Shown in pieces: positions 7,278-51,456 of a stretch of 64,000 bases of DNA. Numbering within the stretch: position 1 is the first letter of the stretch; the number at the start of each line of letters is the position of its first letter. This DNA comes from Conchocele bisecta (taxonomy: Eukaryota > Mollusca > Bivalvia > Lucinida > Thyasiridae): contig CM055266.1 in NCBI GenBank assembly GCA_029237695.1, positions 110,005,370 through 110,069,369 of the forward strand, written 5' to 3'. Made by a program: the position numbers and the translations under genes. The notes beneath the pieces are model-generated. The model was not told the DNA's origin, made no database searches, and worked only from the letters and a program-made list of their open reading frames with translations.

Positions 7278-7283
7278 GAACAA

Positions 7284-7309
7284 TTATAACATGAATGATC
7301 ATGTTATAA
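7284..7309. repeat. 5'-terminal stem-loop of unit A
   Basis: Perfect 11-bp arms (TTATAACATGA and its complement) surround ATGA, 6 bases from the inferred 5' end. The same stem-loop is present in copy B at 23682-23707. Confidence 0.85.
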
Positions 7310-7667
7310 AAGAACGCTTTGAGTGTACGTTATTACTATTGAGGCCAACTACATGTTTGCAAGTAGCATGTAAAGTTATAGATATCAGGGTATGGGATCA
7401 GTGGTTTTCCTGCTTTTCCGACGTGACGTATTCTGTGACGTCATTTTTACAGTAAATTTTCTTGAAACTTTTCCAAGCAAACGGACGGATTTCGATGATA
7501 TGTATCTCACCATAGAAGTGACATACCGGTTCGATGATATGTATCACACCATACATTCACGTTCTTTAGATTTTTATTCACATACATGGTAACCGATTCT
7601 TCGTCAAAACCAGAAAATTGTTAGATTAAAGCAAACTATACCATAATGCAAGAACTGACATCATTAA

Positions 7668-7730
7668 ACGAAGCTAATCCCCTCGCACTGGCATCATTAA
7701 ACGAAGCTAATCCCCTCGCTGGCAGCCTTG
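7668..7730. repeat. Two tandem copies of a ~31-bp unit
   Basis: CATCATTAAACGAAGCTAATCCCCTCG occurs twice in tandem. The same pair occurs in copy B near 24060-24125, so the duplication predates the split of the two copies. Confidence 0.8.
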
Positions 7731-9899: not shown

Positions 9900-11060
9900 C
9901 GGGGTCTCATACATACCCTCGGCCGCAGCAAAGTCATTTGGCCTTGACCTTTGGCATGAAAGCCGCTTAGGTGAGATATAGAATGAAAATATGTTGACAA
10001 AGAAGTATGTGACATTTCCAGTCGATCTAACATACGGTTGCAGATAAATTGTGTACTTAAAACATTAATGCAAATATTTCAAAACATTTAACACAATTTG
10101 ACCTTGACCTTGGGCATGAAAGTCACATGCGTGGGCTATAAAATGAAAATATGGATGTTGATTGTTGATAGACAAATATATGTTTACTTAAAACTTTAAC
10201 GCATATATTTCAAAACATTTAACGCAAGTTTCAAAGAAAGTAATTTCACCTTCACCGTGTGCATGAAAGCCGTATAGAATGTTTGTTTAATGGTGTTTAA
10301 CGGCCTATCAACAGCTATGGTCTAATACTCACATAAAGAATATAACTGTCGGATACCAAATGCCAAAGTTGTTTGTTTGTTTATTGGTGTTTAACGGCCT
10401 ATCAACAGCTCAGGTCATATAAGGCTGGGCAAACGGGTTCGATCCTGTATTAACCTGCTGCATTGGGGGGAAAATCCCAAAATCAGAACGGAATAATTTC
10501 ATTGAGAAAAATATAGTCAGCCCTGAAATTAGAATAACCTGACCTGATGCCAGGTCCATACCACACCAATGTCACTTGGCCCCTTTCCCTCTTTCCCTAA
10601 AAAAGGATTACGAATAATCGTAATACTCACACAAGAGATATAACCAGATTCAACTGTCACATACAAAATGCCAAAGACGTATGGAGGGCCAAACCAGGTC
10701 TCCAGTCGGATTTCCGGTAAGGATGAATCGCGATTGTTAAATTACCCATCACATGCACCCACCAGGGCGATAGAAAGAAAATATTGATCTTCTAACTTAA
10801 TAAAGAAGTATATGAAGTTTCAAGTCAACTCGACTTGCGGTTGCAGAGACATTGTGTACTTAAAAACCTTGACATGTTTGATGCAAATATTTCAAAACTT
10901 TAAGTAATTTGACCTTGTGCAGGAAAGCCACATCGGTGTGCTACAGTATAAAAAATATGGATGACGATAAAGAAGTATATAAAGATTCTACTCAATGCGA
11001 TTTACGGTTGCAGATATAATGGGTACCCAAAAACCTTTAACGCAAATCTTACGGATGGAC
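9900..11060. repeat. Diverged internal repeats including the GGCCTATCAACAG element
   Basis: This holds repeated motifs such as TTTGACCTTGACCTT(T/G)GGCATGAAAG and ACTTACGGTTGCAGA, and two copies of a short interspersed repeat that starts TGGTGTTTAACGGCCTATCAACAGC (about 10285 and 10385). The second copy extends to about 10730 with a GGGTTCGATCC box. The corresponding block is at about 26380-27560 in copy B. Confidence 0.6.
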
Positions 11061-11564
11061 GAAAATACAAAAACTATATACACCTCGACATACTTTGTAT
11101 GCCTGGGTATGAATCATGATTGAAGGCACTGTGTTACAGATGATGCCTCAATATGTTGTTTGCCACATCATGCACTGCAAATGACCAATATCAACCAATT
11201 GCACCATTTCATTCGAAGTCAAATTTCGAAGTCGAAATTTATTGTACATATGTAATTTGTTACAAGTTTGACCATTGGGCATTGATTTCAATTATAATCA
11301 TGATAATAGCACAAAAATAAATCATTAATTCGTAAATTTTCGTTTCCCTTCGAAAGTCTACAAAGTTTGTCTTTGGTCTATTCTGGATGTTTCAAGTAAA
11401 ATCCTTTATTGCGAAGATATCTGAAACAATGTGAAACCAACCAAATATAGACTTTATAGACTGTGGACGTTAAACAAAAATTTATGAATCAAAGATTGAA
11501 TGCAATACCTTAAATGCTAATCACTCTAGGTTGGCGGTAGGATTTTTAAATTTGCTCAAATATG

Positions 11565-11775
11565 TGTCTGTGACTGGAGAAATGGGGCTTATGGGATTTG
11601 CGAAAAAGTGTAGATACACATATCCGCACAGGATCTGCACTGTTCACCATTGCATCAATGAAATCTCCATCATGCTTCTAACAAGCCACATCATTATCAG
11701 GCTACAGGAGTGTACTATTTGATCAGGAGCTACACTGGTCACAAATCCCATAAACCACATTCTCCAGTCACAGCC
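11565..11775. repeat. Inverted-repeat element (CTGTGACTGGAGAA ends)
   Basis: It is bounded by GTGTCTGTGACTGGAGAAATGG and its diverged complement ending CATTCTCCAGTCACAGCCAC. The copy B counterpart is at about 28083-28296. A related piece lies at 49380-49490. Confidence 0.65.
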
Positions 11776-11776
11776 A

Positions 11777-11986
11777 CCGGTTAAAGTAACGGACCAATAC
11801 CTATAAATACATTAAATATACCTAAAAGCATCAATAAGTAAAATAAAATAGGCCAAACAAATTATTTACTCCCATATATCACACATGGAGTAAATACATT
11901 TTGTTTAGCTTATGTTTCTCTCACTTATTGATGCTCTTAGGTGTATTTAATGTATTTATAGGCCATGGTCCGTTACTTCAAACTGA
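11777..11986. repeat. Foldback MITE with GTAACGGACC ends, long form
   Basis: It starts GGTTAAAGTAACGGACC and ends GGTCCGTTACTTCAAACTG. The arms pair over roughly 75 bases, including ATAAATACATTAAATATACCTA and GCATCAATAAGT. The copy B counterpart is at about 28295-28503. Confidence 0.85.
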
Positions 11987-12439
11987 GGTCACAGCCACAT
12001 ATGTGTAAAAGCATAGTAAATATATTTCTGACCATTTCAATATCTAGTCCTTCGAGTGTCACATAATCGGAAATGTACAAATGCCATTCTGTCCACCACA
12101 AGAATAAGTCACCGATTCAAAAAATATTGACAAATCTTAAAACTGCACAAGTCAGATTTGTGTGAATAAGATTCATTCTCATTTCCATCAACACAAGAAG
12201 TAACATGTCTTCACGACACATCCTTTCAACAGGTTGATTAGATGATTAGAGCAGAAATCAGAGTTAAGAACCACACAAACACTGCCACTGGCATGGATGG
12301 TACTCTGGTTAAATGGTTAATTTTTTGTAACTGAACTTGTCTTTCTCAAGCTCTTCCTCGAGCGTTATATTTTCAGATGTCGCTGATCTTAAGATGATGA
12401 CAGTCTGTCATGGCGACACTATATTTTGCTTCGTGTAGG

Positions 12440-12709
12440 TGAGGAACTGGATCAGTTCCCATTTCGCGAGTGTTTGTCAACTTGTTGCCCAGGTGGTGTA
12501 GTGTTTCCAGGCAGCGATTCTTCTGGTGGCCTTTGTCCTTCAACAGCAGAATGAAAAGAAGAAAAACAATTTTTCCGCCTTATCTGCTTCTTCTGAAACC
12601 GCCCATATATTATCTCAATAGCCCTGCTGGTGTCTGCCTCGACTGCAGGGTGAAGTTGAAGAGGCTCGACGAATAATCCAGATGGCTGAGATCTGTAGAC
12701 GGCTTCCCT
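12440..12709 (-). pseudogene. Exon-like captured fragment within unit A, product unknown
   Basis: On the minus strand a textbook splice acceptor (TTGTTTGTTTCAG) is followed by an open stretch reading EAVYRSQPSGLFVEP, LQLHPAVEADTSRAIEI and GRFQKKQIRRK. After that the frame changes by an indel in an A/T run; a shifted frame reads REMGTDPVP and HEAKYSVAMTDC, ending KISDI-stop near 12375. The copy B equivalent (to 29212) has a stop early in the first part. I do not recognise the protein. The acceptor plus biased peptide suggests a piece of a cellular or transposon gene carried along in the unit, now decayed. It could also be chance. Confidence 0.3.
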
Positions 12710-13050
12710 GAAACAAACAATCAAACACTATTATGTACATGGTTAGCCTTTTATTGAATTTCTTACCAGTATTAACCATTACTCAGCAAATGACTCCCCC
12801 GCAACTTTCCAACATGAAACAGTGCTTAGAGAACTACATCCCACCCGGGCATCAAACTCACAACACTTGGATAAATGTGGTAAGCGAGTAAGCCACATTG
12901 TTCATAGTTGTGAACAGTAACTCTTGAAATCTACAACCGTACTGTCCGTAGCAGAGTTACGTTTCCATTCATAGTCTTCCTCTGCAGAATAGTGAATAAG
13001 AGATCTGGTTCGCAAATTAAATGTAGCAGCTAAAGTTGGGGTCCCATCCA

Positions 13051-13197
13051 CAGGTTGAAGTAACGGACCGAGGTATATATGTGTGTTATAGAGGGAGTAA
13101 CAAAAAAAAATAGCTTTTTTTTTTCGTTTATGGACGCTTTTAGGCATATTTAATGTATTTATAGACCTCGGTCCGTTACAATGTAATTCAACCTGTG
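13051..13197. repeat. Foldback MITE with GTAACGGACC ends, short form
   Basis: It starts CAGGTTGAAGTAACGGACCG and ends CGGTCCGTTAC...TTCAACCTG. It is a shorter relative of the element at 11777-11986. The copy B counterpart lies at 29555-29703. Confidence 0.8.
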
Positions 13198-13539
13198 GTC
13201 CCATCTAGTAGGCATAACAGTTTGCCTATAAGAATTAAATAAGTGTATAATTGTGTAACTACGGTACATGTATTCCGCCAGTTTTAAAAATTACGAGTGC
13301 AGGCCCACTATACACATATAATCATTTAGTAATCTTGATTTTACTGATAGTGACTCGCGGTGGTATCAGGCTATTTTGATATGCAAATGAGACATGACAT
13401 TTTTAAATTATTTATACCAATTAAATGTGTCACCAGAACAAATATTTTTATTGACACATTATAAAGTACGATCATAGTGCACATAACAAAACTAAGCAGA
13501 CAGAATATAGTTTCCATTAACCTTTAATGGAAACACAGT

Positions 13540-15065
13540 TATCGCCCCTGTTATCAGTGACGAAATTCAGTTTCATATAAAAAGAAAAAGTACATGTATA
13601 TTTTCACGTACATGTACAAATGGGGGGAAAATCCCAAAATCAGAACTGAATATTTACAATAACAAAATTCAGCGCTGAAATCAGAATAATCCTGGTCTGA
13701 TACCAGGTCCTCGCTACACCAGAATCACTTGGCCCCTCCCAAAAGCAGTAGGATAAGTAATAATCTTAATACTTTTATAATGGGCAATAACCCAATTCAA
13801 CTCCCAGGTAACAAAAGAGCCAAAGATAAAAATGTACTGAAGGGTCAAACCAGGCAAATAGTGATTCCTATATAGAGGAACTACTACCGTTAATTTACGT
13901 CGTCTCGTTCTCTCGACCACCACCCACGTAAAGTTTTGTATTACTTTTATAATAGTTTTATTTTCAGATGGAAAATATACAAATTAGGTCACAATTAACA
14001 ACTAAAGTGTAAATCAGATCTGATTAGCTATTCTGTAGAGGAAGCATACGTATATCATTTATTTGTTTGTTGGGGTCTAACGGCCTATCAACAGATGCGG
14101 TCATTTAAGGCCGGGTCAATGGGTTTAGTAATAAATCCCATATATTACCTGTACAAGTACATGTTCAAGTACATGTACAAATGACGGGAAATCCATCAAA
14201 ATGACGGGAAAAATCCTAAAATCAGAAATGAATATTTACAATAAAAGAACTATATACTCAGCCCTGAAATCAGGATGATCCTGATCTGAGGCCAGGTCCT
14301 CGCCACACCAGAATCACATGGCCCCTCCCAAAAGCAGTAGGATCAGTAATAATCTTACTACTTCTATAATGGGCAATAACCCAATTCAACTGCCAAGTAA
14401 CAGAAAGAGCGAAAGATGAAAAACGTACCTGAGGGCCAAACCAGGCAAATCGTGATCCATACGTATTACTTTTATAAAAAAAAAATTCAAATGGAAAATA
14501 TACAAATTGTGTCACAATTAACAACTAAAGTGTAAATCAGATGATTAGCTATTATGTAGAGGAAGCATACGTATATCATTTATTTGTTTGTTGGGGTCTA
14601 ACGGCCTATCAACAGATGCGGTCATTTAAGGCCGGGTCAATGGGTTTAGTAATAAATCCATATATTACCTGTACAAGTACATGTTCAAGTACATGTACAA
14701 ATGGGGGGAAAATCCTAAAATCAGAAATGAATATTTACAATAAAAGAACTATATAGTCAGCCCTGAAATCAGGATGATCCTGATCGATGCCAGGTCCTCG
14801 CCACACCAGAATCACATGGCCCTCCCAAAAGCAGTAGGATCAGTAATAATCTTACTACTTCTATAATGGGCAATAACCCAATTCAACTGCCAGGTAACAG
14901 AAAGAGCGAAAGATGAAAACGTACCTGAGGGCCAAACCAGGCAAATCGTGATCCATACGTATTACTTTTATAATATTTTTTTTCAGATGGAAAATATACA
15001 AATTGTGTCACAATTAACAACTAAAGTGTAAATCCGATCTGATTAGCTATTATGTAGAGGAAGCC
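13540..15065. repeat. Three tandem ~521-bp units
   Basis: Each unit contains TTGGGGTCTAACGGCC, CTGTACAAGTACATG, GGGGGGAAAATCC, CCAGGTCCTCGCCACACC and GGGCAATAACCCAATTCAAC. Unit starts (TATCATTTATTTGTTTG) at about 14054 and 14575 give the 521-base period; the first unit lacks its start. Copy B has one unit fewer (about 30050-31070). Confidence 0.8.
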
Positions 15066-15567
15066 TACATGTATGAATGGAATAGTAACTCTGCTACAGA
15101 TGGTACAGGAGTAGATTGCAAGAGTTATTGTTCGCAACTACAATAACATGGTTCAATAATAATGAGACATCAGTGATTCTATATTTTATGTACATTGGTG
15201 TCGTTTTTCTAGTTTCGATGTAGAACCAATAATTCATTAAACTGTGTTAATTCCATTGGGTGACAGTCCAGTTGTTACATTTATAATAGTATAGCCAATT
15301 GTTCTCGTCATTTTTTAAATTTTATTTCCACTTCAAGGGACCAGGGGTCTCAGAAATGTAATTTCCATTACGTACATTTACATGACGTAAATATAGCTTT
15401 ACATTTACATTGTTTTCTTTTCAACGGCATAAAACATCAACTGAAGGGGCATCTGTTTAGAAAAGTGTCAAGAATATGATAAGCTAATTGTATTAGTGCG
15501 AAACAGAGAAATTTAGTAGCAAGTCGTGGAATTTCTCATTTATGGTAACCCAACAACATGTATTTAA

Positions 15568-16880
15568 TATGAATCAGTAAAGTTAAGCAAAACAAAATAG
15601 CTTGGCAACTAATAGAATGCCGTGTTTTACCACATGTACCAAACATCGTTATAAAGCTACAGCCTCCAAAAATATGGGCGTAACGGCAATGATTATGTAA
15701 CGGTAATGACAAAACGTAACGGTAATGACTTTCCATTTATTTAAAATACTAATACAGCATATATAACAAACATATTTATACTTTGAATATGCTGTACAAT
15801 ATAACTTCAAGTTAGTGTTTACTTTTAATGTGATTGCCAATAGAAACCCACACTCCTTGCAAGCTGTGTCTGTTTTTTGTTGTTTCAGAGCTTTTACTAA
15901 TTAAATCCTGATATATAAATGTTGTAGGTCTGAATAAATGTGCCATTACTGACCGACAACTGATGGGACCTGGTTTATATCTAATTGACGCATCAACTGA
16001 CTGGTTAGTATGGTAATTTATCATTGCCGTTACACGATCGTCATTACCGTTACACAATTTTGTAACGGAAATGACCGTAACGGTAATGATTTTTCTTCAA
16101 AAACTCCCATTTGTCACCCCTCTGTATACAACGCATCATGAAGGTAGAATATGCAAAGACAACGTTGTAAGTGTGTCTATCTACCAATTTTGGTTTCAGT
16201 CGACCTACATACATATGGACGTGTATAAACCGTGAACGGTAATGATGCATGTAATGTGTAACCTTAAAATTCCGAATACAGACCGGTCTAGTTCTCGGCA
16301 ATGACTTAAGTTGTGTTACCACCGTGTTTATTTATAAATCGGGCGCCCATAAACAGTGTTCATTGCATTAGTAGCTGAGAGTAGGAAAGGGAGGTTACTC
16401 TGATTTTACTTTTTTTTTCAGCGTAATGGTAATGATTCGATTTCGCGGGACAGATACATTAACGTCAGTATTTTTGACAACAAAAGGCAAATTATTGCAG
16501 AATAAGCTTAATGTCAGTGTTAAACTATTTTAATTCAGATGCAATGTATAGTAAAGTACAAATTGACAAGATTTGAGAATTACGGGCTTGTGAACTGTGC
16601 TGATTGATGATCGGGACATGCCCATTTGGTGCACCATACATATGCCAACAACAGAAAATAATAACTAAACACACATAACAAGAATTGTAAATACTGTTTT
16701 CTTAATGGATTGGTATTATACATAGTTTCTTTACTGAAAAAAAAAATTTCCTTTCCTTATAAATTGTGTGATTTGTCAGTAAATTACACCGGGACACCAT
16801 GTACATAAAATATAGAATCACTGACATACATATCTGTACATGTATCAAACCAATGAAAACTGACATTCTGATCTGCATAT
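15568..16880. mobile_element. 1.3-kb block present only in unit A
   Basis: Copy B reads straight across this point near 31580. The block begins TATGAATCAGTAAAG and ends GATCTGCATA. If TAA at both edges is a target duplication, removing one copy recreates the copy B sequence. The ends show only weak inverted similarity (TATG-ATCAG). It contains about nine copies of a GTAACGGTAATGA-like motif in both orientations. Minus-strand open frames of 60-90 codons arise partly from this motif (HYRY, SLPL) and have no recognised domain. A 3-bp TAA duplication would fit a PIF/Harbinger-like non-autonomous element, but this is inference. Confidence 0.5.
15680..16436. repeat. Cluster of GTAACGGTAATGA motifs
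   Basis: Forward copies lie at 15680-15692, 15697-15709, 15716-15728, 16062-16074 and 16077-16089. Inverted copies lie at 16021-16033 and 16041-16053. Degenerate copies lie near 16232 and 16422. Several differ from the 13-mer at one position. Confidence 0.8.
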
Positions 16881-18978
16881 AAAAAATGTCATTTCGGCTA
16901 ATTCTGCGCACGGCTAATGCACAATTCACGTAATGTTTTGCCCAGCTTACGTCAGAATAAATTATGTTGATTTTGGAATAAATCAGCTGATTAACGGTAT
17001 ACTAAGTCACAATTTTATCCCATTCCGATAGTTTGGTAAAAAGTTATTCAGAACATGGTCAAAATGATTAGTGGTCCTGCTTACTAAATGAATAGATCAA
17101 CAACAGATCTGTTAAAAAAAGCTTCATAAACCAATAATACACATGCAAATATACATTGGTTATCATTTTATTCCCGTATTATTCGCAAAACTCAAGACAA
17201 AATGGACTGATATTTTGATCAAATTTGGCTGGGTCTCCGCTAGGCGGATACAGATAATGACGACTGATGAAATAGTAAAAGCCATCTGTTTAGCCGTGAT
17301 TATCTCGACTAAGAACTGCCTTGAATGTTCAGGGAATTTAGACGGAATATGGACATTTTCACGAAAATTATTATTAGGTGCGCAGAATTAACAGACACGA
17401 TTGTAATCCCAACAAACATAGTCTCCACCCCCGCCCATATTTTGTGAGGTCACCCCCAATGAAGCAAAGAAGTCCCTCATCACCACCCCAGACCAAACAT
17501 GGGTACCCTGTGTACAAATAAAATTTTAGGAAGCCCACCCACTGCAATACAAATACTTAATACAAATACTGCACTTCAATTTTTGTACTTGTTTGGTCAC
17601 TGTTGTTATAGTTTTCTAAATCGTGTAAACACGTGACTTTCTGAAAACACTTGTCTTAAGAAAACAACATGAATAATCAGACATGTAAAATATTGGTGTG
17701 TGCAAAGCCACATACACGGTGCGAAGCCGGGTACACTTACTTAATAGAAATACTGCACCGGCCTATATTCATGATATTTCGGGGAAAAGTCACCGCTGTG
17801 CAAATGCATGCAGTGTACCTGGATTCGCACACCTCAATTTTTTACTTATTTCATCACTGTTGTTACAGTTTTTTTAAACACATTTGACTCTCGAAAGGGG
17901 GGGGGGGTGTAATGAAAGTAGTGTCTTTTTTAAGTGGCTAAAAGCCTATATAGACAATAGTGAATAGATAACAGATAATAGCCTAAATATATAATGAATT
18001 GACTTGTTGGACTGAAAACATATATTCAAAGTGAATCTACAAGTATCGAGGTGCCACAAACACACAGAGTCCGAGATGCACCATAAATTAGAAAATTAGC
18101 TATTTAAACAACAATTGTGGAAACAACATTGGTCGCGAAAACCAATGACTCGGCACAAGCACAGGCAATGTTGAATATCCCCACCCACTTGAATTCATGT
18201 TAGATTAAATACAATGGAATTATTTTAGTAGCCCTGTGGTTAAAAGTGCTGTCGAAGTCAGCACGATTCAAATATTGGTCAACAGTAATAAAGAAATAAT
18301 TCTTACCTGAAATGAATGTTTCGTGTCTTGAAGCCAGTAGACTTATGTAAAATGTAGGTCAATTATTGATGCGTCTTGGGCCATGGCTGTCGCCGTATTG
18401 TCCTCTCAACTTTAGCAAATTTGCAGAAATGTACGTCTGTAGCATTCACAAATCGTCGAGTACACAATAGTATCTGTATTACCGTATGTAGAGCTTATCA
18501 ACAATGAAGACAGCAATAATTTCAAAATGTCTTGAACCAGTACGTGTAATGGCAGGACACGAAATATAGTATGACGTCACAATGAAAATAAAATCGCATT
18601 TAACAACAAATAGCTGACTTTTTAAACGTAAATTTGTTATTGGTTGGTATATTACATTAAAAAAAAGTGTCCTGTGTCCAATAAATTGGACACATGACAC
18701 TATGGCGTTTAGTAAAATGGTTCAAATATTGACTCTTTATGTACCGGACGTTCTAAATGAGGCTCCATACGGGATAATCTATTTAAACTAAATTTCATTG
18801 GGAAGCTATTTTTTTGCAAATTACATGCGTATTATTATTTTAATATAACCTATCAATGTTTACAGGTGTTAGCATGTTTCAATATTGAACTAACATATAG
18901 CTTGTTGGTATTGGCACACTTTCATGTTACGAAGTTTCCCGCAGCGAACCCCATTCGGCCCATCGACCGATTGTAATT

Positions 18979-19020
18979 ATAGAACGCCTGTAACTATTCA
19001 CGAGAATATAGGCGTTCTAT
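18979..19020. repeat. 3'-terminal stem-loop of unit A
   Basis: Perfect 11-bp arms (ATAGAACGCCT / AGGCGTTCTAT) surround a 20-base loop, ending 3 bases before the inferred 3' end. It is conserved in copy B at 33687-33728. Confidence 0.85.
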
Positions 19021-19023
19021 GAA

Positions 19024-21698: not shown

Positions 21699-23675
21699 AT
21701 GGACATACAAATCGGAGCACTAAATGTAAAATGATTAGGGGCAGCAAATAAAAGAGCACAGGGTTTTCAGTGTGGCTTACCGACAAACACTAGTCAATAT
21801 GTTTATTACAAGAAACTCATTTCACGGCATCTAATAAAAGTCAATGGGAATGAGAATGGGGTCATACAGCCTTTTTAGGTGGCAATTATACTAACAAAGA
21901 GGGAGTGGGAATTTTAATAAATCCTAATTTGACGTATGAAATAAATGGTTACTCAGAAATATTACAGGACTGTTAGAAACTCTAACAATAAATAGGAAGA
22001 ACAATAAAAATATTATTATAGGTTGTGATTTTAATATACAATTCTTTATCCCGATATAGACAAAAATAATGGACAACAAGGAACACATAAACAAACACGA
22101 AACAAACTCAAAACTAGTATAGACACTTATACATGATGTGATATATGGTGAATACAAAATCCGAACTCATGAAAATATACTTGGCACTGGAATACTAGGC
22201 CAACAATATTCTTCCGTCTAGATTAGTTTCTTGTTTCAGAAAACATACTAATTTGAGGGTAGAATTGCAAAAATAAACGTTTGGATGTAGATCAGAGCGC
22301 TCTGTGGTCAGCTTGTTGCAAGTATCTAACGTCAGTAGGGGTCCTGGATATTTCAAGTTAAACACTAGTTTGCTTCTAGATAGTGAATACACACAATTAA
22401 CACGCCAATCTATAGATGAAATCGCACGTATAAATTCAGATGCAACCCAAATACTATATGAGAAATAATTAAAGGAACCATACGAAATGAAATTATCAGC
22501 TATGCGACAAGGAAAAAGAGAGATGAAAAGTGAAAACAATATCCAAAACGAAATAGACGCATTAAAAGCAGAATTAACAAATGACCCATGAAATAACGAC
22601 ATAACTGCGCAAATTTAAAATAACAGGATAGCAATTGAAAACATTTATGAGAAAATGGTGATTGGCATAAGGTTACGATCAAAAGCAGAATTGATCGAAG
22701 GTGGCAAAACAATGAAAAATTATATACAAACTTAGAAAAACATAATGCTGAATGTAAAACCATTTTAAGATTAAATGCAAATGGGCAAACGATCACTGAA
22801 CAATCCGATATATTAATAGAAGAAAGGAAATATTACGAAAAGCTATGTACAAAAAGAGACACATTAGAAACTAGACCACATTTTTTCTCAGATAATAGCA
22901 TCCATAAAATATCCTATCTTGACAAACAAAAATGTGAAGGTTCACTAACAGAGTATGAATGCAGCATTGCTGTAAAAGATATGACAATAATAAAATCCCT
23001 GGATCGGACTAATTAACAGTAGAGTTCTATAACATATTGTGGAAAGAAATTAAATCATACCTTTTGAACTCTCTAAGCTATTCGTTTGAAACTGGAAACC
23101 TCACGAATCTACAGAAACAATGTATTATTATGCTATTACCGAACAAAGATAAAGAACTGTCATTATTATCTAACTGGAGACCTATATCCTTCTTAGCGTA
23201 GATTATAAATTGCTACGAAATCAATTGTTAATATATTAATAAAGTAGTATCCACTATTATACACGGTTCACAGATTTTGAAAAGGCATTCGATAGCGTTG
23301 ATCATAATTATATGTTGAATACATTGAACTATTTCAATTTTGGAGATGATTTTATTAAATGGATTATTTTATTTCATTCAGATGCCGGAAGCTGTGTTAG
23401 CAATAATTATCAGCCTGTTTTACTATCGGCCGTGGAGGGCGCCAATGCCGTCCCATATTACCTTATTTATTTATAATAGCCATTGAAATACTATCAAAAG
23501 CGATGCAAAATGACAATGAAATAAAAGGAGTCAATATACATAACCAAACTATTAAAACTACAATGTTCACAGACGATGCATCATTGTTTACAGATGGCAC
23601 AGCACACTCTTTTAAAAGGTTAGTAGAGACAAGCTATTTTGGTAAAATTACGCGTCTGCTTTTAAATATTAACAA
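21699..23675 (+). pseudogene. Tx1/L1-type LINE ORF2, 5' part (endonuclease and RT start)
   Basis: Non-LTR retrotransposon endonuclease/reverse transcriptase, heavily decayed. It begins MDIQIGALNVK, followed by SICLLQETHF and NKEGVGILINPNLTYEING, the N-terminal half of an APE-type endonuclease. After a badly degenerate stretch (about 22160-22640) the RT part is readable in pieces: RRWQNNEKLYTNLEKHNAEC, IIMLLPNKDKELSLLSNWRP, FEKAFDSVDHNYML (motif A), DFIKWIILFHSDAGSCVSNN, a damaged RQG box, and TMFTDDASLFTDGT (motif C, FTDD). The frame runs to SRLLLNI-like sequence (RLLLNIN) and is then cut by unit B. It resumes at 33732. Many stops and frameshifts throughout. Confidence 0.85.
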
Positions 23676-26600
23676 GAACAATTATAACATGAATGATCAT
23701 GTTATAAAAGAACGCTTTGAGTGTATGCTATTATTATTGAGGCCAACTACATGTTTGCAAGTAGCATGTAAAGTTATAGATATCAGGGTATGGGATCAGT
23801 GGTTTCCGAACCTGCTTTTCCGACATGACGTATTCTGTGACGTCATTTTTACAGTAAATATTCTTGAAACTTTTCCAAGCAAACGGACGGATATCGATGA
23901 TATGTATCACACCATAGAAATGACATACCGGTTCGATGATATGTATCACACCATACATTCACGTTCTTTAGATTTATATTCACATCCATGGAAACCGATT
24001 CTTCGTCAAAACCAGAAAATTGTTAGATTAAAGCAAACTATACCATAATGCAAGAACTGGTATCATTAAACGAAGCTAATCCCCTCGCACTGGCATCATT
24101 AAACGAAGCTAATCCCCTCGCTGGCAGCCTTGATAATAAAAAGTACTCCGTGACCTTGGGCGGTCGAACGTGGGTCATACGAGTCTACTCATATGCTAAA
24201 CCATGCTCCATCCATAGACACACATTATGGTCAAATAATATCAAAATCGTGGAAGAAGTTCACAAGTTAATCGAAAAATGAAAGGTGTTACTGGCGTACG
24301 TACATACGTACAGTACATGGACTAACGATATACCAGCTCTTGCCTATCGCGAGGGGTTACTAATTGGCCACCTGTTTAAGCATTTACTGCGTTATGTTTC
24401 ATTAAACTCTGTCTTTCCATTATAAAGATATTACATTCAACATCCTGCACCACCTTTAATTGACATGGCGCAATTTTAAATATTGCGCGGGCCCAATTTT
24501 CCCAATTTTAGTACTTTCCACTAACATAAAAAACCGACATCTAGTCGCACGCTGACTGAGCCGCGATCTATAAAACTTACCCAGGGAGTTTACATTGCAA
24601 ACATAGTGTAACGCGTCCACTGGCGGTTTGTTTCGGTGAGTCCGCACAGTACAACAGTCCGACTTGGCAACGCCACCTAGCGACTTATCACCGGCACTGC
24701 AGTGCTTGATATCAAAATCCTAAAACCATCAACTTCTAAAACTGGCGTTTTGAAGAAAGTCATGAAATATGCAATCTTAAATTCGATAAAATTGACGCAG
24801 TACAATTTGAACGACGTTATAAGCCAAAGATATGAGTGCCAGAAATAATCACATTCAGGACACATGAAAATGTTTGCCATTTCTCCATTTCATTGTCGAA
24901 ACTCCAGACGGTTTTACAGAATGTGAAAGCCATAGAAAATGTATACTGGATATCAAATACTCCTACAAGCACCAATATGAACTTGTGAGTGAAATTCACG
25001 ACAGGTCATACATTACATCGAAACAGAAATCATTGCCTTGAAAAAGTCTGAGAAATATTACACACACACAAGTACACATTCAAACGGCTGTATGTCAAAA
25101 ATTGTTCTGCGACTTTGCACTGTAGTGGAGTATCCTGATTCATGCAGAGGGGGTGTGAATTGTGAATGGAGTTTGGAAGGGGTGCGAGAACATACATTTA
25201 ATTTCTTCCATTGAAGTGATTTTCACATATATTATACAGGTAGTTATTTCCCCCAGAAAACGTAGGTTAAAGTAAAAAAATACACACCTGACCAAATGTT
25301 ACAGGATGCAATTACACACCATGTCACTGGACTTTGTACTGTACACCCACTGGTGAATCCATGTGACAAGTGTTTTGTATGATGTGGTGTTTGTGAATGA
25401 GCTGATAAGACAAGCCTTTGCACTTAATGACTGGGTGCCAGACATCCTTCAGCAAAGTTGCAAATCATGATTTGAATTGGGGTCCCATCTGTTTGGCACA
25501 AAGTGTTCTTTATAGGAATTAAATATTAAATAAGTATAATTGTGTAACTATTCCAACAGTTTAAAAAAATACGAGTACTCACTACACAGAAATATTCACT
25601 TAGTAATCTTAGGTTTACTGATAGGTTGTATCATCGTGCTATTTTGATTGTAAATGAGGCAGGTCATTTTTAAAGTATTTATATCAACTAAATGTGTCAC
25701 CTGAATAAATATTTGTATTGACTTGTTACAAAATATGATCATTGCACATCAAAAAGATAAATAGAGAGAATAAATAGTTGTTTCCATTAACATTTTAAAG
25801 AGTCAATGTTATCGCCCTTGATATCAAAGTGGCAATTCAAGCTTGATGTAAAAATAATAATAATGTAAAATTAACATGGTTGATATGATTTTTTTTAAGA
25901 ATTTTAACAAATTTTCTACAACGGCCATCTTGGATTATGCGACAACCTCCATTTTAACAAATATGAAAATGCTTCACCCACGCACCACAATGTGAAGTCT
26001 GACCAGCGTCGGCCAAACGGTACATGAGAAGAAGACGAAATCTATAATTAAAGGATGACCTGTCGGCGGCCATCTTGTATGATGTATCATCCGATTTTGA
26101 CAATACCCACGATACCTTCGATTTGATATATATCAGGACCATATTAGGTCAAATTTGAAATATCGCTATGTGCCAGATACAAAATCAATGCGTGAACAAA
26201 CAAAGGGAGAACACTGGAATATTAGTGAGGCAAGAGTTGTGATAAAAATACAAAAAGGAATTCCAGTTATGCTCGGGACACAAAATCAGTACATGTATCC
26301 GAAAAAAACAAAAGAAATCAGTATGTTAAGATATGTTATTCTTGCTTTTAAGGACTAGAGCAAGTGAGCGGGGTCTCACACATACCCGCGGCCGTAGCAA
26401 AGTCATTTGGCCTTGACCTTTGGCATGAAAGCTGCTTAGGTGAGATATAGAATGAAAATATGGCTGTTGATAAAGAAGTGTGACATTTCCAGTCGATCCA
26501 ATATACGGTTGCAGATAAATTGTGTACTTAAAACTTTAATGCAAATATTTCAAAACATTTAACACAATTTGACCTTGACCTTGGGCATGAAAGTCACATG

Positions 26601-28294
26601 CGTAGGCTATAAAATGAAAATATGGATGTTGATTGTTGATAGACAAATATATGAAAGTTTCAATTCAATCTGACTTACGGTTGCAGAGAAATTGTTTACT
26701 TAAAACTTTAACGCATATATTTCAAAACATTTAACGCAAGTTTCAAAGTAATTTCACCTTCACTGTGTGCATGAAAGCCGTATGAGTGGGCTATATAATG
26801 TTTGTTTAATGGTGTTTAACGGCCTATCAACAGCTATGGTCTAATACTCACATAAAGGATATAACTGTCGGATACCAAATGCCAAAGTTGTTTGTTTGTT
26901 TATTGGTGTTTAACGGCCTATCAACAGCAGGTCATATAAAGCTGGGCAAACGGGTTTGATCCTGTATTAACCTGCTGCATTGGGGGGAAAATCCCAAAAT
27001 CAGAACGGAATAATTTCATCGAGAAAAATATAGTCAGCCCTGAAATTAGAATAACCTGACCTGATGCCAGGTCCATACCACATCAAAGTCACTTGGCCCC
27101 TTTCCCTAAAAAAGGATTACGAATAATCGTAATACTCACAAAAGAGATATAACCAGATTCAACTGTCACATACAAAATGCCAAAGACGTATGTGAGGGCC
27201 AAACCAGGTCTCCAGTCGGATTTCCGGTAAGGATGAATCGCGATTGTTAAATTACCCATCACATGCACCCACCAGGGCTATAGAAAGAAAATATTGATCT
27301 TCTAACTTCATAAAGAAGTATATATATGAAGTTTCAAGTCAACCCGACTTGCGGTTGCAGAGACATTGTGTACTTAAAAACTTTGACACGTTTGATACAA
27401 ATATTTCAAAACTTTAAGTAATTTGACCTTGTGCAGGAAAGCCACATCACATCGGTGTGCTACAGTATAAAAAATATGGATGACGATAAAGAAGTATATG
27501 AAAATTCAACTCAATGCGATTTACGGTTGCATATATAATGGGTACCCAAAAACCTTCAACGCAAATCTTACGGATGGACGAAAATACAAAAACTATATAC
27601 ACCTCGATATACTTTGTATGCCTGGGTATGAATCATGATTGAAGGCACTGTGTTACAGATGATGCCTCAATATGTTGTTTCTCACATCATGCACTGCAAA
27701 TGACCAATATCAACCAATTGCACCATTTCATTCGAAGTCAAATTTCGAAGTCGAAATTTATTGTACATGTAATTTGTTACAAGTTTGACCATTGGGCATT
27801 GATTTCAATTATAATCATGATAATAGCACAAAAATACATCATTAATTCGTAAATTTTTGTTTTCCCTTCGAAAGTCTACAAAGTTTGTCTTTGGTCTATT
27901 CTGGATGTTTCAAGTAAAATCCTTTATTGCGAAGATAACTGAAACCATGTGAAACCAACCAAATATAGACTTTATAGACTGTGGACGTTAAACAGAAATT
28001 TATGAATCAAAGATTGAATGCAATACCTTAAATGCTAATCACTCTAGGTTGGCGGTAGGATTTTTAAATTTGCTCAAATATGTGTCTGTGACTGGAGAAA
28101 TGGGGCTTATGGGATTTGCGATCAGTGTAGATACACATATCCGCACAGGATCTGAACTGTTCACCATTACATCAATGAAATCTCCATCATGCTTCTAACA
28201 AGCCACCATCATTATCAGGCTACATGAGTGTACTATTTGATCAGGAACTACACTGGTCACAAATCCCATAAACCACATTCTCCAGTCACAGCCA

Positions 28295-28503
28295 CCGGTT
28301 AAAGTAACGGACCAATACCTATAAATACATTAAATATACCTAAAGCATCAATAAGTGAAATAAAATAGGCTAAACAAATTATTTACTCCCATATATCACA
28401 CATGGAGTAAATACATTTTGTTTAGCTTATTTTTCTCTCACTTATTGATGCTCTTAGGTATATTTAATGTATTTATAGGCCATGGTCCGTTACTTCAACC
28501 TGA
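28295..28503. repeat. Foldback MITE in unit B, long form
   Basis: Counterpart of 11777-11986: GTAACGGACC at 28304 and GGTCCGTTAC ending at 28493, with long pairing arms. Confidence 0.8.
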
Positions 28504-29554
28504 GGTCACAGCCACATATGTTTAAAAGCATAGTAAATATATTTCTGACCATTTCAATATCTAGTCCTTCGAGTGTCACATAATCAGAAATGTACAAATG
28601 TCATTCTGTCCACCACAAGAATGAGTCACCGATTCAAAACATATTGACAAATCTTAAAACTGCACAACTCAGATTTGTGTGAATAAGATTCATTCTCAAT
28701 TCCATCAACACAAGAAGTAACATGTCTTCACGATACATCCTTTCAACAGGTTGATTAGATGATTAGAGCAGAAATCAGAGTTAAGAACACACAAACACTG
28801 CCGCTGGCATGGATGGTACTCCGGTTAAATGGTTAATTTTTTGTAACTGAACTTGTCTTTCTCAAGCTCTTCCTCGAGGGTTATATTTTCAGATGTCGCT
28901 GATCTTAAGATAATGACAGTCTGTCATGGCGACACTATATTTTGCTTCGTGTAGGTCAGGAACTGGATCAGTTCCCATTTCGCAAGTGTTTGGCAACTTG
29001 TTGCCCAGGTGGAGTAGTGTCTTCGGGCAGCGATTCTTCTGGTGGCCTTTGTCCTTCAACAGTAGAATGAGAAACAATTTCCGCCTTATCTGCTTCTTCT
29101 GAAACCGCCCATATACTATCTCAATAGCCCTGCTGGTGTCTGCCTCGACTGCAGGGTGAAGTTGAAGAGGCTCGACGAATAATCCAGATGGCTAAGATCT
29201 GTAGACGGCTTCCCTGAAACAAACAATCAAACACTATTATGTACATGGTTAGCCTTTTATTGAATTTCTTACCAGTATTAACCATTACTCAGCAAATGAC
29301 TCCGCAACTTTCCAACATGAAACAGTGCTTAGAGAACTACATCCCACCCGGGTATCAAACTCACAAAAACTTGGATAAATGTGGTAAGCGAGTAAGCCAC
29401 ATTGTTCATAGTTGTGAACAGTAACTCTTGAAATCTACAACCGTACTGTCCGTAGCAGAGTTACGTTTCCATTCATAGTCTTCCTCTGCAGAATAGTGAA
29501 TAAGAGATCTGGTTCGCAAATTACATGTACCAGCTAAAGTTGGGGTCCCATCCA

Positions 29555-29703
29555 CAGGTTGAAGTAACGGACCGAGGTATATATATGTGTGTGTTATAGA
29601 GGGAGTAACAAAACTTTTTATAGCTTTTTTTTTTCGTTTATGGACCGCTTTTAGGCGTATTTAATGTATTTATAGACCTCGGTCCGTTACAATGTACTTC
29701 TTA
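29555..29703. repeat. Foldback MITE in unit B, short form
   Basis: Counterpart of 13051-13197, with GTAACGGACCGAGG at 29564 and CCTCGGTCCGTTAC ending at 29690. Confidence 0.8.
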
Positions 29704-30049
29704 ACCTGTTTGCATAACAGCTTGCCTATAAGAATTAAATAAGTGTATAATTGTGTAACTACGGTACATGTATTCCGCCAGTTTTAAAAATTACGAGTGC
29801 AGGTCCACTATACATATATAATCATTTAGTAATATTGATTTTACTGATAGTGACTCGTGGTGGTATCAGGCTATTTTGATATGCAAATGAGACATGACAT
29901 TTTTAAATTATTTATACCAATTAAATGTGTCACCCGAACAAATATTTTTATTGACACATTATAAAGTACGATCATAGTGCACATAACAAAACTAAGCAGA
30001 CAGAATATAGTTTCCATTAACCTTTAACGGAAACACGGTTATCGCCCCT

Positions 30050-31070
30050 GATATCAGTGACGAAATTCACGTTTCATATAAAAAGAAAAAGTACACGTAT
30101 ATTTTCACGTACATGTACAAATGGGGGGAAAATCCCAAAATCAGAACTGAATATTTACAATAACACAACTATATATTCAGCGCTGAAATCAGAATATCCT
30201 GGTCCGATACCAGGTCCTCGCCACACCAGAATCACTTGGCCTCTCCCAAAAGCAGTAGGATAAGTAATAATCTTACTACAATGTACTTTTATAATGGGCA
30301 ATAACCCAATTCAACTCCCAGGTAACAAAAGAGCCAAAGATAAAAATGTACTGAAGGGTCAAACCAGGCAAATAGTGATTCCTATATGGAGGAACTACTA
30401 CCGTTTATTTACGTCGTCTCGTTCTCCCGACGTGACCACCCACGTAAAGTTTTGTATTACTTTTATAATAGTTTTTTTTTCCAATGGAAAATATACAAAT
30501 TAGGTCACAATTAACAACTAAAGCGTAAATCAGATCTGATAAGCTATTCTGTAGAGGAAGCCTACGTATATCATTTATTTGTTTGTTGGGGTCTAACGGC
30601 CTATCAAGTTATCAACAGATGCGGTCATTTAAGGCCGGGTCAATGGGTTTAGTAATAAATCCCATATATTACCTGTACAAGTACATGTTCAAGTACATGT
30701 ACAAATGGGGGGAAAAATCCTAAAATCAGAAATGAATATTTACAATAAAAGAACTATATACTCAACCCTTAAATCAGGATGATCCTGATCTGATGCGAGG
30801 TCCTCGCCACACCAGAATCACATGGCCCCTCCCAAAAGCAGTAGGATCAGTAATAATCTTACTACTTCTATAATGGGCAATAACCCAATTCAACTCCCAG
30901 GTAACAGAAAGAGCGAAAGATGAAAACGTACCTGAGGGCCAAACCAGGCAAATCGTGATCCATACGTATTACTTTTATAATATTTTTTTTTTGAGATGGA
31001 AAATATACAAATTGTGTCACAATTAACAACTAAAGTGTAAATCAGATCTGATTAGCTATTATGTCGAGGA
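30050..31070. repeat. Two tandem ~521-bp units in unit B
   Basis: Same unit as the three-copy array at 13540-15065. The first unit lacks its start; the second begins at TATCATTTATTTG near 30568. Confidence 0.75.
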
Positions 31071-32583
31071 GCCTACATGTATGAATGGAATAGTAACTCT
31101 GCTACAGACGGTACAGGAGTAGATTGCAAGAGTTATTGTTCGCAACTACAATAACATGGTTCAATAATAATGAGACATCAGTGATTCTATATTTTATGTA
31201 CATATTTGTGTCGTTTTTCTAGTTTCGATGTAGAACCAATAATTCATTAAACTGTGTTTATTCCATTGGGTGACAGTCCAGTTGTTACATTTATAATAGT
31301 ATAGCCAATTGTTCTCGTCATTTTTTTAATTTTATTTCCACTTCAAGGGTACCAGGGGTCTCAGAAATGTAATTTCCGTTACATACATTTACATGACGTA
31401 AATATAGCTTTACATTTACATTTTTTCCTTTTCAACGGCATAAAACATACAACTGAAGGGGCATCTATTTAGAAAAGTATCAAGAATATGGTAAGCTAAT
31501 TGTATTAGTGCGAAACAGAGAAATTTAGTAGCAAGTCGTGGAATTTCTCATTTATGGTAACCCAACAACATATATTTAAAAAATGTCATTTCGGCTAATT
31601 CTGCGCACCGGCTAATGCACAATTCACGTAATGTTTTGCCCAGCTTACGTCAGAATAAATTATGTTGATTTTGGAATAAATCAGCTGATTAACGGTATAC
31701 TAAGTCACAATTTTATCCCATTCCAATAGTTTGGTAAAAAGTTATTCAGAACATGGTCAAAATGATTAGTGGTCCTGCTTACTAAATGAATAGATCAACA
31801 ACAGATCTGCTTCATAAACCAATAATACACATGCAAATATACCGACATTGGTTATCATTTTATTCCCGTATTATTCGCAAAACTCAAGGACAAAATGGAC
31901 TGTTATTTTGATCAAATTTGGCTGGGTCTCCGCTAGGCGGATACAGATAATAGACGACAGATGAAATAGTAAAAGCCATCTGCTTAGCCGTGATTATCTT
32001 GGCTAAGAACTGCCTTGAATGTTCAGTGAATTTTGACTGAATATGGACATTTTCACGAAAATTATTATTAGGTGCGCAGAATTAACAGACATGATTGTAA
32101 TCCCAACAAACATACAGTCTCCACCCCCGCCTATATTTCGTGAGGTCACCCCAATGAAGCAAAAAAGTCCCTCATCACCACCCCAGACCAAACATGGGTA
32201 CCCTGTGTACAAATAAATTTTAGGAAGCCCACCCACCCACTGCAATACAAATACTTAATACAAATACTGCACTTCAATTTTTTTACTTGTTTGGTCACTG
32301 TTGTTATCGTTTTCTAAATCGTGTAAACACGTGACTTTCTGAAAACACTTGTCTTAAGAAAACAACATGAATAATCAGACATGTAAAATATTGGTGTGTG
32401 CAAAGCCACATACACGGTGCGAAGCCAGGTACACTTACTTAATAGAAATACTGCACCGGCCTATATTCATATTTCGGGGAAAATTCACCGCTGTGCAAAT
32501 GCAGTGTACCTGGATTCGCACACCTCAATTTTTTACTTTTTTCATCACTGTTGTTACAGTTTTTATAAACACATTTGACTGGC

Positions 32584-32601
32584 GGGGGGGGGGGGGGGGG
32601 G
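32584..32601. repeat. Poly-G run
   Basis: About 18 consecutive G. Copy A has 11 G at the matching place (17897-17907). Confidence 0.85.
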
Positions 32602-33731
32602 TGAAAGTAGTGTCTGTTTTAAGTGGCTAAAAGCCTATATAGACAATAGATAACAGATAATAGCCTAAATAGATAATGAATCGACTTGTTGGACTGAAAA
32701 CATATATTCAAAGTGAATCTACAAGTATCGAGGTGCCACAAACACACAGAGTCCGAGATGCACCATAAATTAGAAATTAGCTATTTAAACAACAATTGTA
32801 GAAACAACATTGGTCGCGAAAACCAATGACTCGGCACATGCACAGGCAATGTTGAATATCCCCCACCACATGAATTCATGTTAGATTGAATACAATGGAA
32901 TTATTTTAGTAGCCCTGTGGTTAAAAGTGCTGTCGAAGTCAGCACGATTCAAATATTGGTCAACAGTAATAAAGAAATAATTCCTACCTGAAACAAATGT
33001 TTCGTGTCTGGCAGCTAGTAGTAGTAGACTTATGTAAACTGTAGGTCAATTATTGATGTCTCTTGGCTGTCGCCGTATTGTCCTCTCAACTTTAGCAAAT
33101 TTGCAGAAATGTACGTCTGTAGCATTCACAAATCGTTGAGTACACAATGAGTATCTGTATTTCCGTATTTAGAGCTTATCAACAACGAAGACAGCAATCA
33201 CGATGGCAGTACGTGTAATGGCAATATGACCAATCATTGTATTATTACGCGTTTGGCAGGACACGAAATATAGTATGACGTCACAATGAAAATACAATTG
33301 CATTTAACAACAAATAGCTGACTTTTTAAACGTAAATTTGTTATTGGTTGGTATATTACATTAAAAAAAAGTGTCCTGTGTCCAATAAATTGGACACATG
33401 ACACTATGGCTTTTAGTTTATAAAACGGTTCAAATATTGACTCTAAATGTACCAGAGGTTCTAAATGAGGCTCCATACGGGATAATCTATTTAAACTAAA
33501 TTTCATTGGGAAGCTATTTTTTTGCAAATTACATGCGTATTATTATTTTAATATAACCTATCAATGTCTACAGGTGTTAGCATGTTTCAATATTGAACTA
33601 ACATATATCTTGTTGGTATTGGCACACTTTCATTTTACGAAGTTTCCCGCAGCGAACCCCATTCTGCCCATCGACCGATTGTAATTATAGAACGCCTGTA
33701 ACTATTTACGAGAATATAGGCGTTCTATGAA

Positions 33732-34775
33732 AAATCTACTGTTCTTAGAGTGGGATCATTATCACAATCATCAATACGCTACTTCTCAAACAAACAATTT
33801 ATATGGACATCAGACAAAGCCAGACGTTGGGTATGACATTTTCAAATTATGTAAACGTAATTTATCAACACAACATTGATCCAAAAATTAAAGAATTCGA
33901 AAATTGTTTAAACAAATGGAAATGCATGCACCTCACATTGATAGGAAAAGTAAACGTAATACAAACTTTCGCTATTCCAAAACTAATACATCCGTTAACG
34001 GTACTGTCATTCAAACGCATCAAGATAGCACTAATATTCATATCCGGAAAAGGATTCTAAGCCAGACAAAATTAAAAGAAATGTAATAACGCAAACTTAT
34101 GAGAACGGGGTGGGGATCAATTTGCTTGATATTGATTTGCTTATACGATCTTTAAAAGCCAGTTGGCTAAAAAGACTATGTGATGATAACAATACCGGCA
34201 TATCGAAACAAACATATAAAGAACAATTAAAACAGTCTGGCGGAATGTTTATTTTCCAATGTAATATAAGCTATGAAGATGCGACGAACATCCATAAACA
34301 TACATATATCAACAGTATACTTACAGCATGGTAGAACATTAACTTCTACAAACTGAAAACATTAACGTGATACAAAACAACCAAAAATGTATTAATTAAA
34401 TAAAAAAACAGTAAATCTATAAATAAAACATTGCATAATATTCAGAGGGAAAAATGTACCGGAACAGAAATGAGCGAGCATATTTTCGGATAAAACTCTT
34501 AACTAGAAAACGATATACTCCAAATTGGCTGTGATAATGTAATAAATTCAGTATAATAATATTACTGTACCGAGTACCATATATATAAGGCTCAGAAATT
34601 TCCAATACAAGTATCTAATGAGAATTATAGGTACCAATAAACTGATGGCAATGTGTAATATAGTAGAATCTAGTTTATGCGATTTTTGTAACATGCACAA
34701 AGAAACATTCGATCATCTATTCTGGGAATGCAATGTGATACAAAAGTTCTGGTCTTTAACATTCCAGTGGAAATA
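33732..34775 (+). pseudogene. Tx1/L1-type LINE ORF2, 3' part
   Basis: Continuation of the LINE broken at 23675. Readable pieces in order are STVLRVGSLSQSSIRYFSNK and QFIWTSDKAR; IDPKIKEFENCLNKW and LIGKVNVIQTFAIPKL; INLLDIDLLIRSLKASWLKR; KQSGGMFIFQCNISYEDATN; and, after a degenerate section, LRNFQYKYLMRIIGTNKL with a C-terminal zinc knuckle CDFCNM..HLFWEC (CX2CX8HX4C) at about 34680-34735. Frame ends at a TAA at 34773-34775. These are the RT thumb and C-terminal regions of the Tx1 group. Multiple frameshifts make it non-functional. Confidence 0.85.
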
Positions 34776-35470
34776 AATGTGTAGACAATTTAATTTGGAA
34801 TGATCGATGCAGGAATACACAGAAAATAATTGCAATATATTTTACTCTTAGCCAAGTACAATATATACATGTAATCACCAGAAAATCAACATGTGTTTCA
34901 ATAATTGTATACCATACTGGAAGCATAGTATAAGAGTTGAGGAAATGATAGCCCAATGCAAATTGGATAAACACATTACCAAATGGGGACACAGTGTCAT
35001 TTAATATTATACTACCAGACCAAAAATAACAGGTACATGTAACTACCTCATTTACCAACCACAAAAATTGGTTCTGTTTTACATATTAGTATCAAGGGAC
35101 AAGGACCATGTGTCATGTGTAATATGTGGCATACAAACAGCAAATATCGTGTATTGTAATTATGTATGTTAATATTTTATTTACATGTGCAATTGGAATG
35201 TTACATGCTGGAATTAACTATCCTATATGTCTGTTTCTAAGCTGACACACAGCTTATTATTTTTCCCATCTCAAACGTGCCTATATACACTACATCTCAA
35301 TCTATCCATCTTCTTGAATTCAATATATTTCCCTCGATAGAAAAAAACAACCTTGTTTCTCATGTCATGTATGTATCCATATACTTCTGTATCTGTATAA
35401 ATGTGAAATACTTTGAGAAATAAAAATCATTAATGACAAGAAAAGCAAAATGAATACAACAAATAAAGAC
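34776..35470. other. No gene; AT-rich LINE-flanking sequence
   Basis: AT-rich, probably 3' untranslated sequence of the preceding LINE and unrelated spacer. ATTAAAAATCATTAATG-like A-rich patches occur near 35410-35460. No domain found. Confidence 0.45.
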
Positions 35471-35474
35471 CACG

Positions 35475-36060
35475 AGCGAATCTAATAAAAAGCTATATAA
35501 CATGTTTCTTAATCAACAGAAACCGGTTGTGCATAAAGCCAAGCTAAAATGGGATGGCGAATTCGCGGATACAAATAAAAATAGGAAGGTAGTCTACACA
35601 AATCATTTTACAAACACTATGCGTTCTAAACTTAGGAATTTTCAGTACAAATTGTTAATGAGAATTGTCGCTACAAACGATTATTTACATAAGTGTAACA
35701 TTATTAGCTCCAATGTGTGTGATGTTTACGCCATGGCTCCAGAAACAAATAAGCACATTTTTTGGGAATGCACTATAAGCCAACAATTTTGGTCACAGCT
35801 GAATACCTTTTTTAACAATAATAATATTGTATGTAATTTTGATTGGCACACTGTTTGCTTCGGGAAATATGAGCAAGACAACACGTAGCTACAATAATTC
35901 GCCTCCGATATGTTAATTAGCTACGAATACAATTTGACCCATTCAAAAAATGTGAGCAACCGAAGTGCATACCAAACCTGTTACATGTAGGACAAAATTT
36001 AGTAAAATGTATACGTTATACCTTTAAACAAATAATCTTTGATTTAGAACTAGTAAATTG
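35475..36060 (+). pseudogene. Second Tx1-like LINE ORF2 C-terminal fragment
   Basis: A 128-codon frame (35502-35888) reads KPVVHKAKLKWDGEF, KLRNFQYKLLMRIVATN and HIFWECTISQQFWSQLN. This is the same C-terminal domain as at 34576-34775 but a distinct, diverged copy, and everything upstream of this domain is absent. The zinc knuckle has lost its second Cys (CDVYAM where CDFC is expected). Degenerate similarity (IRLRYVN, QFDPFKKCEQPKC) continues to about 36060. It is a 5'-truncated LINE copy inserted next to the first. Confidence 0.75.
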
Positions 36061-51358: not shown

Positions 51359-51456
51359 AAAACGGTTTAAAAATGCAACAAGGAAGTAAACATGCTTTTC
51401 ATTCATCCATTACATCCTATGCCAGCACATTTTATTATGGGGACATAATGCATTAT

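Follow-up and report, generated by a model that had tools for sequence, protein, structure and literature searches.

What mobilizes a ten-kilobase unit of DNA in which no genes are detectable? The question arises from a 64,000-nt stretch of the bivalve Conchocele bisecta (assembly GCA_029237695.1, contig CM055266.1, positions 110,005,370 to 110,069,369 of the forward strand; hereafter the window), where two copies of such a unit, A and B, are separated by 4.7 kb and copy B lies within a long interspersed nuclear element (LINE). A first-pass annotation of this sequence had suggested a possible new class of element, having compared the unit, as far as Helitrons are concerned, with the canonical ends (TC...CTRR) alone. 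We propose instead that this 10-kb unit is probably a non-autonomous rolling-circle transposon of the Helentron/Helitron2 type (HINE-like), predicted to be driven in trans by the Rep-helicase of another element. Because its ends, target and empty sites match Helitron2/Helentron, we reject a new class as the principal explanation: the unit is an unusually long, gene-less variant of the non-canonical Helitrons, remarkable for its size, for a gene-less body kept at full length and for its apparent copy number. By our analysis it appears to work like a non-autonomous Helentron/Helitron2, an assignment that commits to a working mode and not to strict membership.

Self-BLAST revealed that A and B are colinear and 93-95% identical in three blocks (7265-19026 versus 23663-33734), with A longer than B by ~1.7 kb through an internal duplication and an extra segment; the two blocks are therefore copies of one unit, as first annotated, and this unit is a dispersed element. 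A 601-bp query taken from one end of B (window 23676-24276) yielded 2,300 first-look candidates in the assembly (1,891,530,640 bases, 1.89 Gb, in 1,196 contigs), of which 40, B included, were scored. All 40 were 98-100% identical to the query and were spread over 17 contigs; being the best matches to a single end of B, they have a low divergence that is partly built in, and copies without the queried unit-left end could not turn up. Twenty-six sequences were then considered, namely A, B, 14 further fetched copies and ten more fetched by their two ends, with copies chosen through their match to the unit-left end and unit ends located via an exact inner motif. In its own orientation the unit starts with AACAAGAACAATTATAAC in all 26. 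Nine were left out of the table of copies read at both ends: the fetched stretch stopped before the far end in c10a, c2a, c4b and c17a, an inverted second unit interrupts c5a, a large insert interrupts L035, and L031, L037 and L045 are taken up below.

The 17 remaining copies agree at both termini. Read on the minus strand, which is the relevant reading strand of the element, each has TTTT followed directly by CATAGAACGCC...CATGTTATAATTGTTCTTGTT and a variable base N; in longer or alternative letters the 3' end of the same copies is ...TTGTTCTTGTT, with N being A, T or C. In short, CATAG...CTTGTT stands between TTTT and N in 17/17, while the flanks of these copies are mutually unrelated at the junctions. 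Together with the LINE empty sites described below, these common ends place copy B at 23671..33729 (minus strand, 10,059 bp), with a Helitron-type 5' end at 33729 and the 3' end at 23671, and copy A at 7273..19021 (minus strand, 11,749 bp), the latter being older, at 2.7-2.9% substitutions from ten B-like copies. The sharp ends first reported thus held up across many copies, although their coordinates (7278-19023 and 23676-33731) were slightly off, and the concern that copies elsewhere might have ragged ends was not borne out in the copies read at both ends. Two copies only 4.7 kb apart could also point to a segmental duplication or an assembly (haplotig) artefact, a doubt raised at the outset; this is contradicted by the scored copies on 17 contigs, by unrelated flanks with the same end points, by empty LINE sites and by the 2.89% substitutions between A and B, and we assign it a practically negligible probability.

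The LINE provides a direct view of the target before insertion. Its left part (22651..23670, plus strand) contains frames 22651-23016 and 23407-23670, and 23520-23670 is continuous with the right part by joined-flank search; the right part (33735..35888, plus strand) has a zf-RVT domain in 35454-35888. A 300-letter query made of the joined LINE flanks of B gave 101 candidates, of which 40 were scored, and 42 matches, two of them B's own halves. Without the unit, 32 of the 42 span at least query positions 4-298 at 77-91% identity, which bears out the earlier claim that copy B interrupts a LINE. Junctions were fetched for eleven of these LINE copies, and all eleven run on across the insertion site through an A-rich run: five (L053, L054, L056, L058, L059) have ATT and A6 at the junction, L060 has A5, the same as B minus its element, three (L052, L055, L057) have a run interrupted by a substitution, and the two 77% copies (L061, L062) have A5 and then GTGCACTG. 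In B, AACAAG...CTATG is set into this run with no duplication and the loss of at most one A. Since all eleven junctions continue across the site, the element entered an A/T-run with its target neither duplicated nor lost, to within one base, in agreement with the initial estimate of at most a 2-bp duplication.

On the minus strand the target in the LINE is a host T-run, TTTTT at 33730..33734, directly 5' of the element. The TTTT present at this place in 17/17 copies compares with a background of 148 in 9,010 tetramer positions (1.6%) in their flanks. A second site is exact: one unit copy (L033/L034) lies inside another unit, flanked by T6 and T, and the corresponding host run in B is T7 (25274..25280, minus strand), so that the empty site divides precisely into T6 and T. 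Similarly, the inverted second unit of c5a lies within another T7 run, of which one side was read. These runs bear on the possibility that the unit is a non-coding RNA copy mobilized by a LINE, a giant relative of short interspersed nuclear elements whose short poly(A) tail would be the AAAA that follows CTATG. The right junction in unit orientation, GAAAA or longer in the 17 copies, would suit such a tail, but the same run is found in empty LINE sites and at the self-insertion site and hence belongs to the target, and there is no target duplication; we consider this origin extremely improbable.

Both termini carry predicted secondary structure. A 5'-terminal hairpin in Helitron orientation (33687..33728, minus strand; arms ATAGAACGCCT and AGGCGTTCTAT) begins one base inside the 5' end and folds as DNA at -11.2 kcal/mol (z -5.78), a value equalled by 0/200 shuffles; the fold was computed on the majority sequence of the copies, from which B departs at a single loop-region base. 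A 3'-subterminal hairpin (TTATAACATG-loop-CATGTTATAA; 23682..23707, minus strand) ends 11 nt from the 3' end and folds at -8.1 kcal/mol (z -4.55), again with 0/200 shuffles as good. In addition, the 7-bp subterminal inverted repeat AGAACGC has its 5' copy at 33720..33726 (minus strand), 3 nt from the 5' end, and its 3' copy at 23709..23715 (plus strand), 38 nt from the 3' end. Hairpins near both ends, a fixed 5' tetranucleotide and the lack of duplication are also features of an IS200/IS605-like single-strand transposon, in which subterminal hairpins would mark the cutting sites of a Y1 transposase and insertion would take place 3' to TTTT without duplication. Two Y1_Tnp matches in the assembly exceed the Pfam cut-off (of 7 candidates, E about 3e-6), but both are short and on one contig, C895, and one contains 3 stops, as against 77 matches to Helitron_like_N (93 candidates). 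We know of no eukaryotic precedent for an IS200/IS605-like Y1 transposon, and hold this explanation to be highly improbable. As a separate observation, contig C895 is possibly, at a guess, bacterial contaminant or symbiont sequence.

How closely do these features follow known rolling-circle elements? In mite HINEs the subterminal repeats are located 2-4 nt (5' side) and 38-60 bp (3' side) inside the termini, with a palindrome at a distance of 8-35 bp from the 3' terminus (PMC4067079), and the corresponding spacings of the unit (3 nt and 38 nt for the repeat, 11 nt for the hairpin) all fall within these ranges. HINE insertions have at least two Ts on each end, in a T-rich target that is left unmodified, with variable numbers of Ts (PMC4067079). 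Like HINE/DINE-1 elements, which are non-autonomous Helentrons (PMC4067079), the unit is non-coding, targets T-runs without changing them, places its 3' hairpin and 3' repeat alike and varies in its Ts; unlike them, it is 10 kb long and its subterminal repeat is perfect over just 7 bp, the published HINE/Helentron subterminal inverted repeats being 11-15 bp. Cg_HINE of the Pacific oyster likewise combines a 5' repeat and a nearby complementary inverted repeat with a 3' repeat followed by a palindrome, a T-rich target and no duplication, and its partner is not settled either (PMC7492417). However, its center carries arrays of satellite-like tandem repeats and its repeats are 11-12 bp long (PMC7492417), whereas the unit has a long interior with few repeated modules.

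Helitron2 carries a hairpin at each terminus and integrates 3' of TTTT and ahead of a T or C (PMC5148889). The unit resembles the Helitron2/FoHeli elements of Fusarium in its asymmetric inverted repeats, in the terminal hairpins that some of them have at both ends and in insertion after TTTT; in contrast to the gene-less unit, FoHeli elements are mainly coding, about 5-11 kb long, and their non-autonomous forms are deletion derivatives (PMC5148889). Non-autonomous Helitrons are typically much shorter than autonomous ones (PMC5148889). Rolling-circle elements above the usual size do exist, with large Helitrons reaching 14 kb in fungi and 39 kb in maize (PMC6431247), but these are long through captured gene fragments (PMC6431247), and no Pfam family was found in the body of the unit. 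What the unit shares with the canonical Helitron (Helitron1) is a hairpin some 11 nt short of the 3' end and the absence of target duplication. Canonical elements have 5' TC, 3' CTRR and a target between A and T; the unit begins with CA and ends in GTT, its 5' neighbor being TTTT and its 3' neighbor A, T or C, and on these grounds a Helitron1 is rejected. The literature search brought up no account of a comparable burst of a 10-kb gene-less HINE, although one may have been published.

No coding capacity was found in the unit. The longest stop-to-stop frame is 124 aa in B, up to 150 aa in other copies and 167 aa where another element landed, so the first-pass statement that no open reading frame exceeds ~100 codons was nearly right. 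No Pfam family was found in B at E<=1 (six frames, X at stops, 574 bases at one end omitted per three-frame set), and an Rfam scan of the window gave 0 hits at gathering scores. B and 13/14 fetched copies share the 124-aa frame, located at the left end of the unit, and A lacks it; we do not read it as a gene, since the near-identity of the copies can explain its recurrence. Self-BLAST found no long terminal inverted repeat, as previously noted. A Polinton/Maverick is rejected on that count, on the absence of a 6-bp duplication and on a Pfam scan without any family (PolB and integrase would be expected), and a long terminal repeat (LTR) retroelement because neither long terminal direct repeats nor a target duplication was seen in copies read at both ends or at LINE empty sites. 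The exclusion of canonical Helitron, Polinton and LTR element in the initial description therefore stands, and it is the step from there to a new class that the minus-strand ends, matching non-canonical Helitrons, do not support.

Two repetitive features were observed in the interior. An imperfect palindrome of ~200 bp, 82-85% self-complementary, lies mid-unit in both copies (window 28297-28500 and 11781-11981), and internal repeat modules of ~285-640 bp, 73-91% alike, occupy window 13194-15567 and 29734-31082 and are further amplified in A. Flanking sequence from nine unit copies (29,495 bases) also contains relatives of some of these modules.

If the unit is non-autonomous, does the genome encode a plausible partner? 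Among the 77 Helitron_like_N matches, three Rep loci were considered in 10-kb stretches. At the Helentron-like locus on C3 (L049, C3:111903300-111913299), two long frames that overlap encode Rep, PIF1 helicase, endonuclease and OTU protease domains; that on C15 (L050) has Rep and PIF1 domains; the third is on C7. The C15 and C3 proteins had no match in the fetched unit loci or the window. A link of the unit to the C15 locus via shared internal repeats was considered and dropped, because module relatives also occur in the flanks mentioned above.

Several observations count against a HINE-like assignment. In the three stretches, which need not reach those elements' ends, resemblance to either unit end did not exceed the best of 20 shuffles, and no autonomous partner with the unit's ends was found among these three loci. 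AGAACGC is perfect over 7 bp only, and 145/5000 shuffles score as high, so the repeat is weak. Head-to-tail copies of the unit, an arrangement reported for some Helitrons though not required of them, gave 0 matches in the assembly (exact junction pattern, 0-12 spacer bases). As the unit adjoins T-runs, it is uncertain to within one or two how many Ts belong to the element and how many to the host. Finally, at three loci (L031/L032, L037/L038, L045/L046) unit sequence was not found 9.5-15.5 kb from the start, and shortened or rearranged copies probably exist. The missing partner at the Rep loci considered, the weak subterminal repeat and the lack of tandem copies would also be expected of a new class of large element whose enzyme, as yet without a name, likewise prefers T-runs. 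Against this, the target, hairpin positions and absent duplication fit the published Helitron2/Helentron pattern, and Rep-helicase genes are present in the genome; we judge a new class improbable.

Under the favored Helentron/Helitron2-type assignment, the steps of transposition can be predicted from the family. The first nick, at the 5' end directly behind TTTT, would be made by a Rep protein, and a helicase would then displace one of the strands. Displacement would stop at the hairpin that lies 11 nt from the 3' end; the freed single strand, probably as a circular intermediate, would be inserted at another T-run and be copied there.

When did the unit spread? The divergence table covers 11 copies, A and B among them, and leaves out the six of which just the ends were fetched. 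Ten B-like full copies differ pairwise by 0.21-0.93% substitutions, and A differs from them by 2.67-2.92% (2.89% from B). Two-state sites among the ten comprise 209 singletons versus 8 shared, as in a star, and eight of these copies measure 10.04-10.13 kb, while c4a (10.5 kb) and c12b (12.0 kb) hold inserted sequence. Because the copies are star-like and differ little, though they were taken from best matches, the spread of B-like copies looks recent, and one master sequence probably made most of them recently. By the same selection from best matches, the true divergence spread of the family is wider than among the chosen copies. If all 2,300 first-look candidates were full length, the family would amount to ~23 Mb, near 1.2% of the assembly; three of 26 seem not to be. 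A gene-less unit as long as autonomous elements appears to have recently reached high copy number. That a gene-less 10-kb transposon kept its full body through a recent burst might mean that the body itself, beyond the ends, is needed for success, for example as a signal for replication, expression or escape from silencing, but we regard this as unlikely.

The unit also carries other elements. At a T-run that in B lies at 24528..24533 (minus strand; unit position about 856), four other unit copies hold a smaller HINE-like element (~1.28 kb), whose subterminal inverted repeat (ACATAGGGTAC and GTACCCTATGT) is 11 bp long and whose presence in this genome counts in favor of the assignment proposed for the unit. 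Three of them, c4b, c10a and c2a (loci L005/L012, L008/L015 and L003/L010), hold it at this same internal T-run, and in the fourth (L036) the unit sequence that precedes its start is the same. Copies c4b and c10a hold it as a head-to-tail dimer and c2a holds it once, while a head-to-tail junction is also present in the fourth copy (L065). Since the same internal site is occupied at different genomic places, the unit and its nested element were most likely copied on as one piece; once another element lands in the unit, the composite would be copied as a whole. Dimers of the smaller element are an expected leftover of rolling-circle copying, though unequal recombination would also give them. Part of the smaller element resembles modules within the 10-kb unit (72-80% alike). 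The fourth copy (L035/L036, on C13) has a ~9 kb insert at about 45018304-45027372, sampled by three 1-kb stretches (L063-L065), which holds the smaller element with its junction and other coding sequence (frames of 320 and 161 aa). This insert was considered as a possible Rep partner and rejected, the sampled coding sequence being without match to the C15 and C3 proteins. Overall, the family offers a clean, low-divergence set in which to address the cis needs of a non-canonical Helitron, the length of DNA that can be copied and the carriage of nested cargo.

Other repeats surround the two copies in the window. A dispersed repeat of ~360 bp with a palindromic part occurs at 51452-51810, 57188-57546 and 1841-2178, two of these being 97% identical and in inverted orientation, and a tandem array with a 166-bp period (5.7 copies) lies at 62270-63233. 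Two Tc1/mariner-type transposase remnants or copies were observed at 20021-20797 (minus strand) and 39428-40573 (plus strand), the latter sitting between two pieces of a reverse-transcriptase element.

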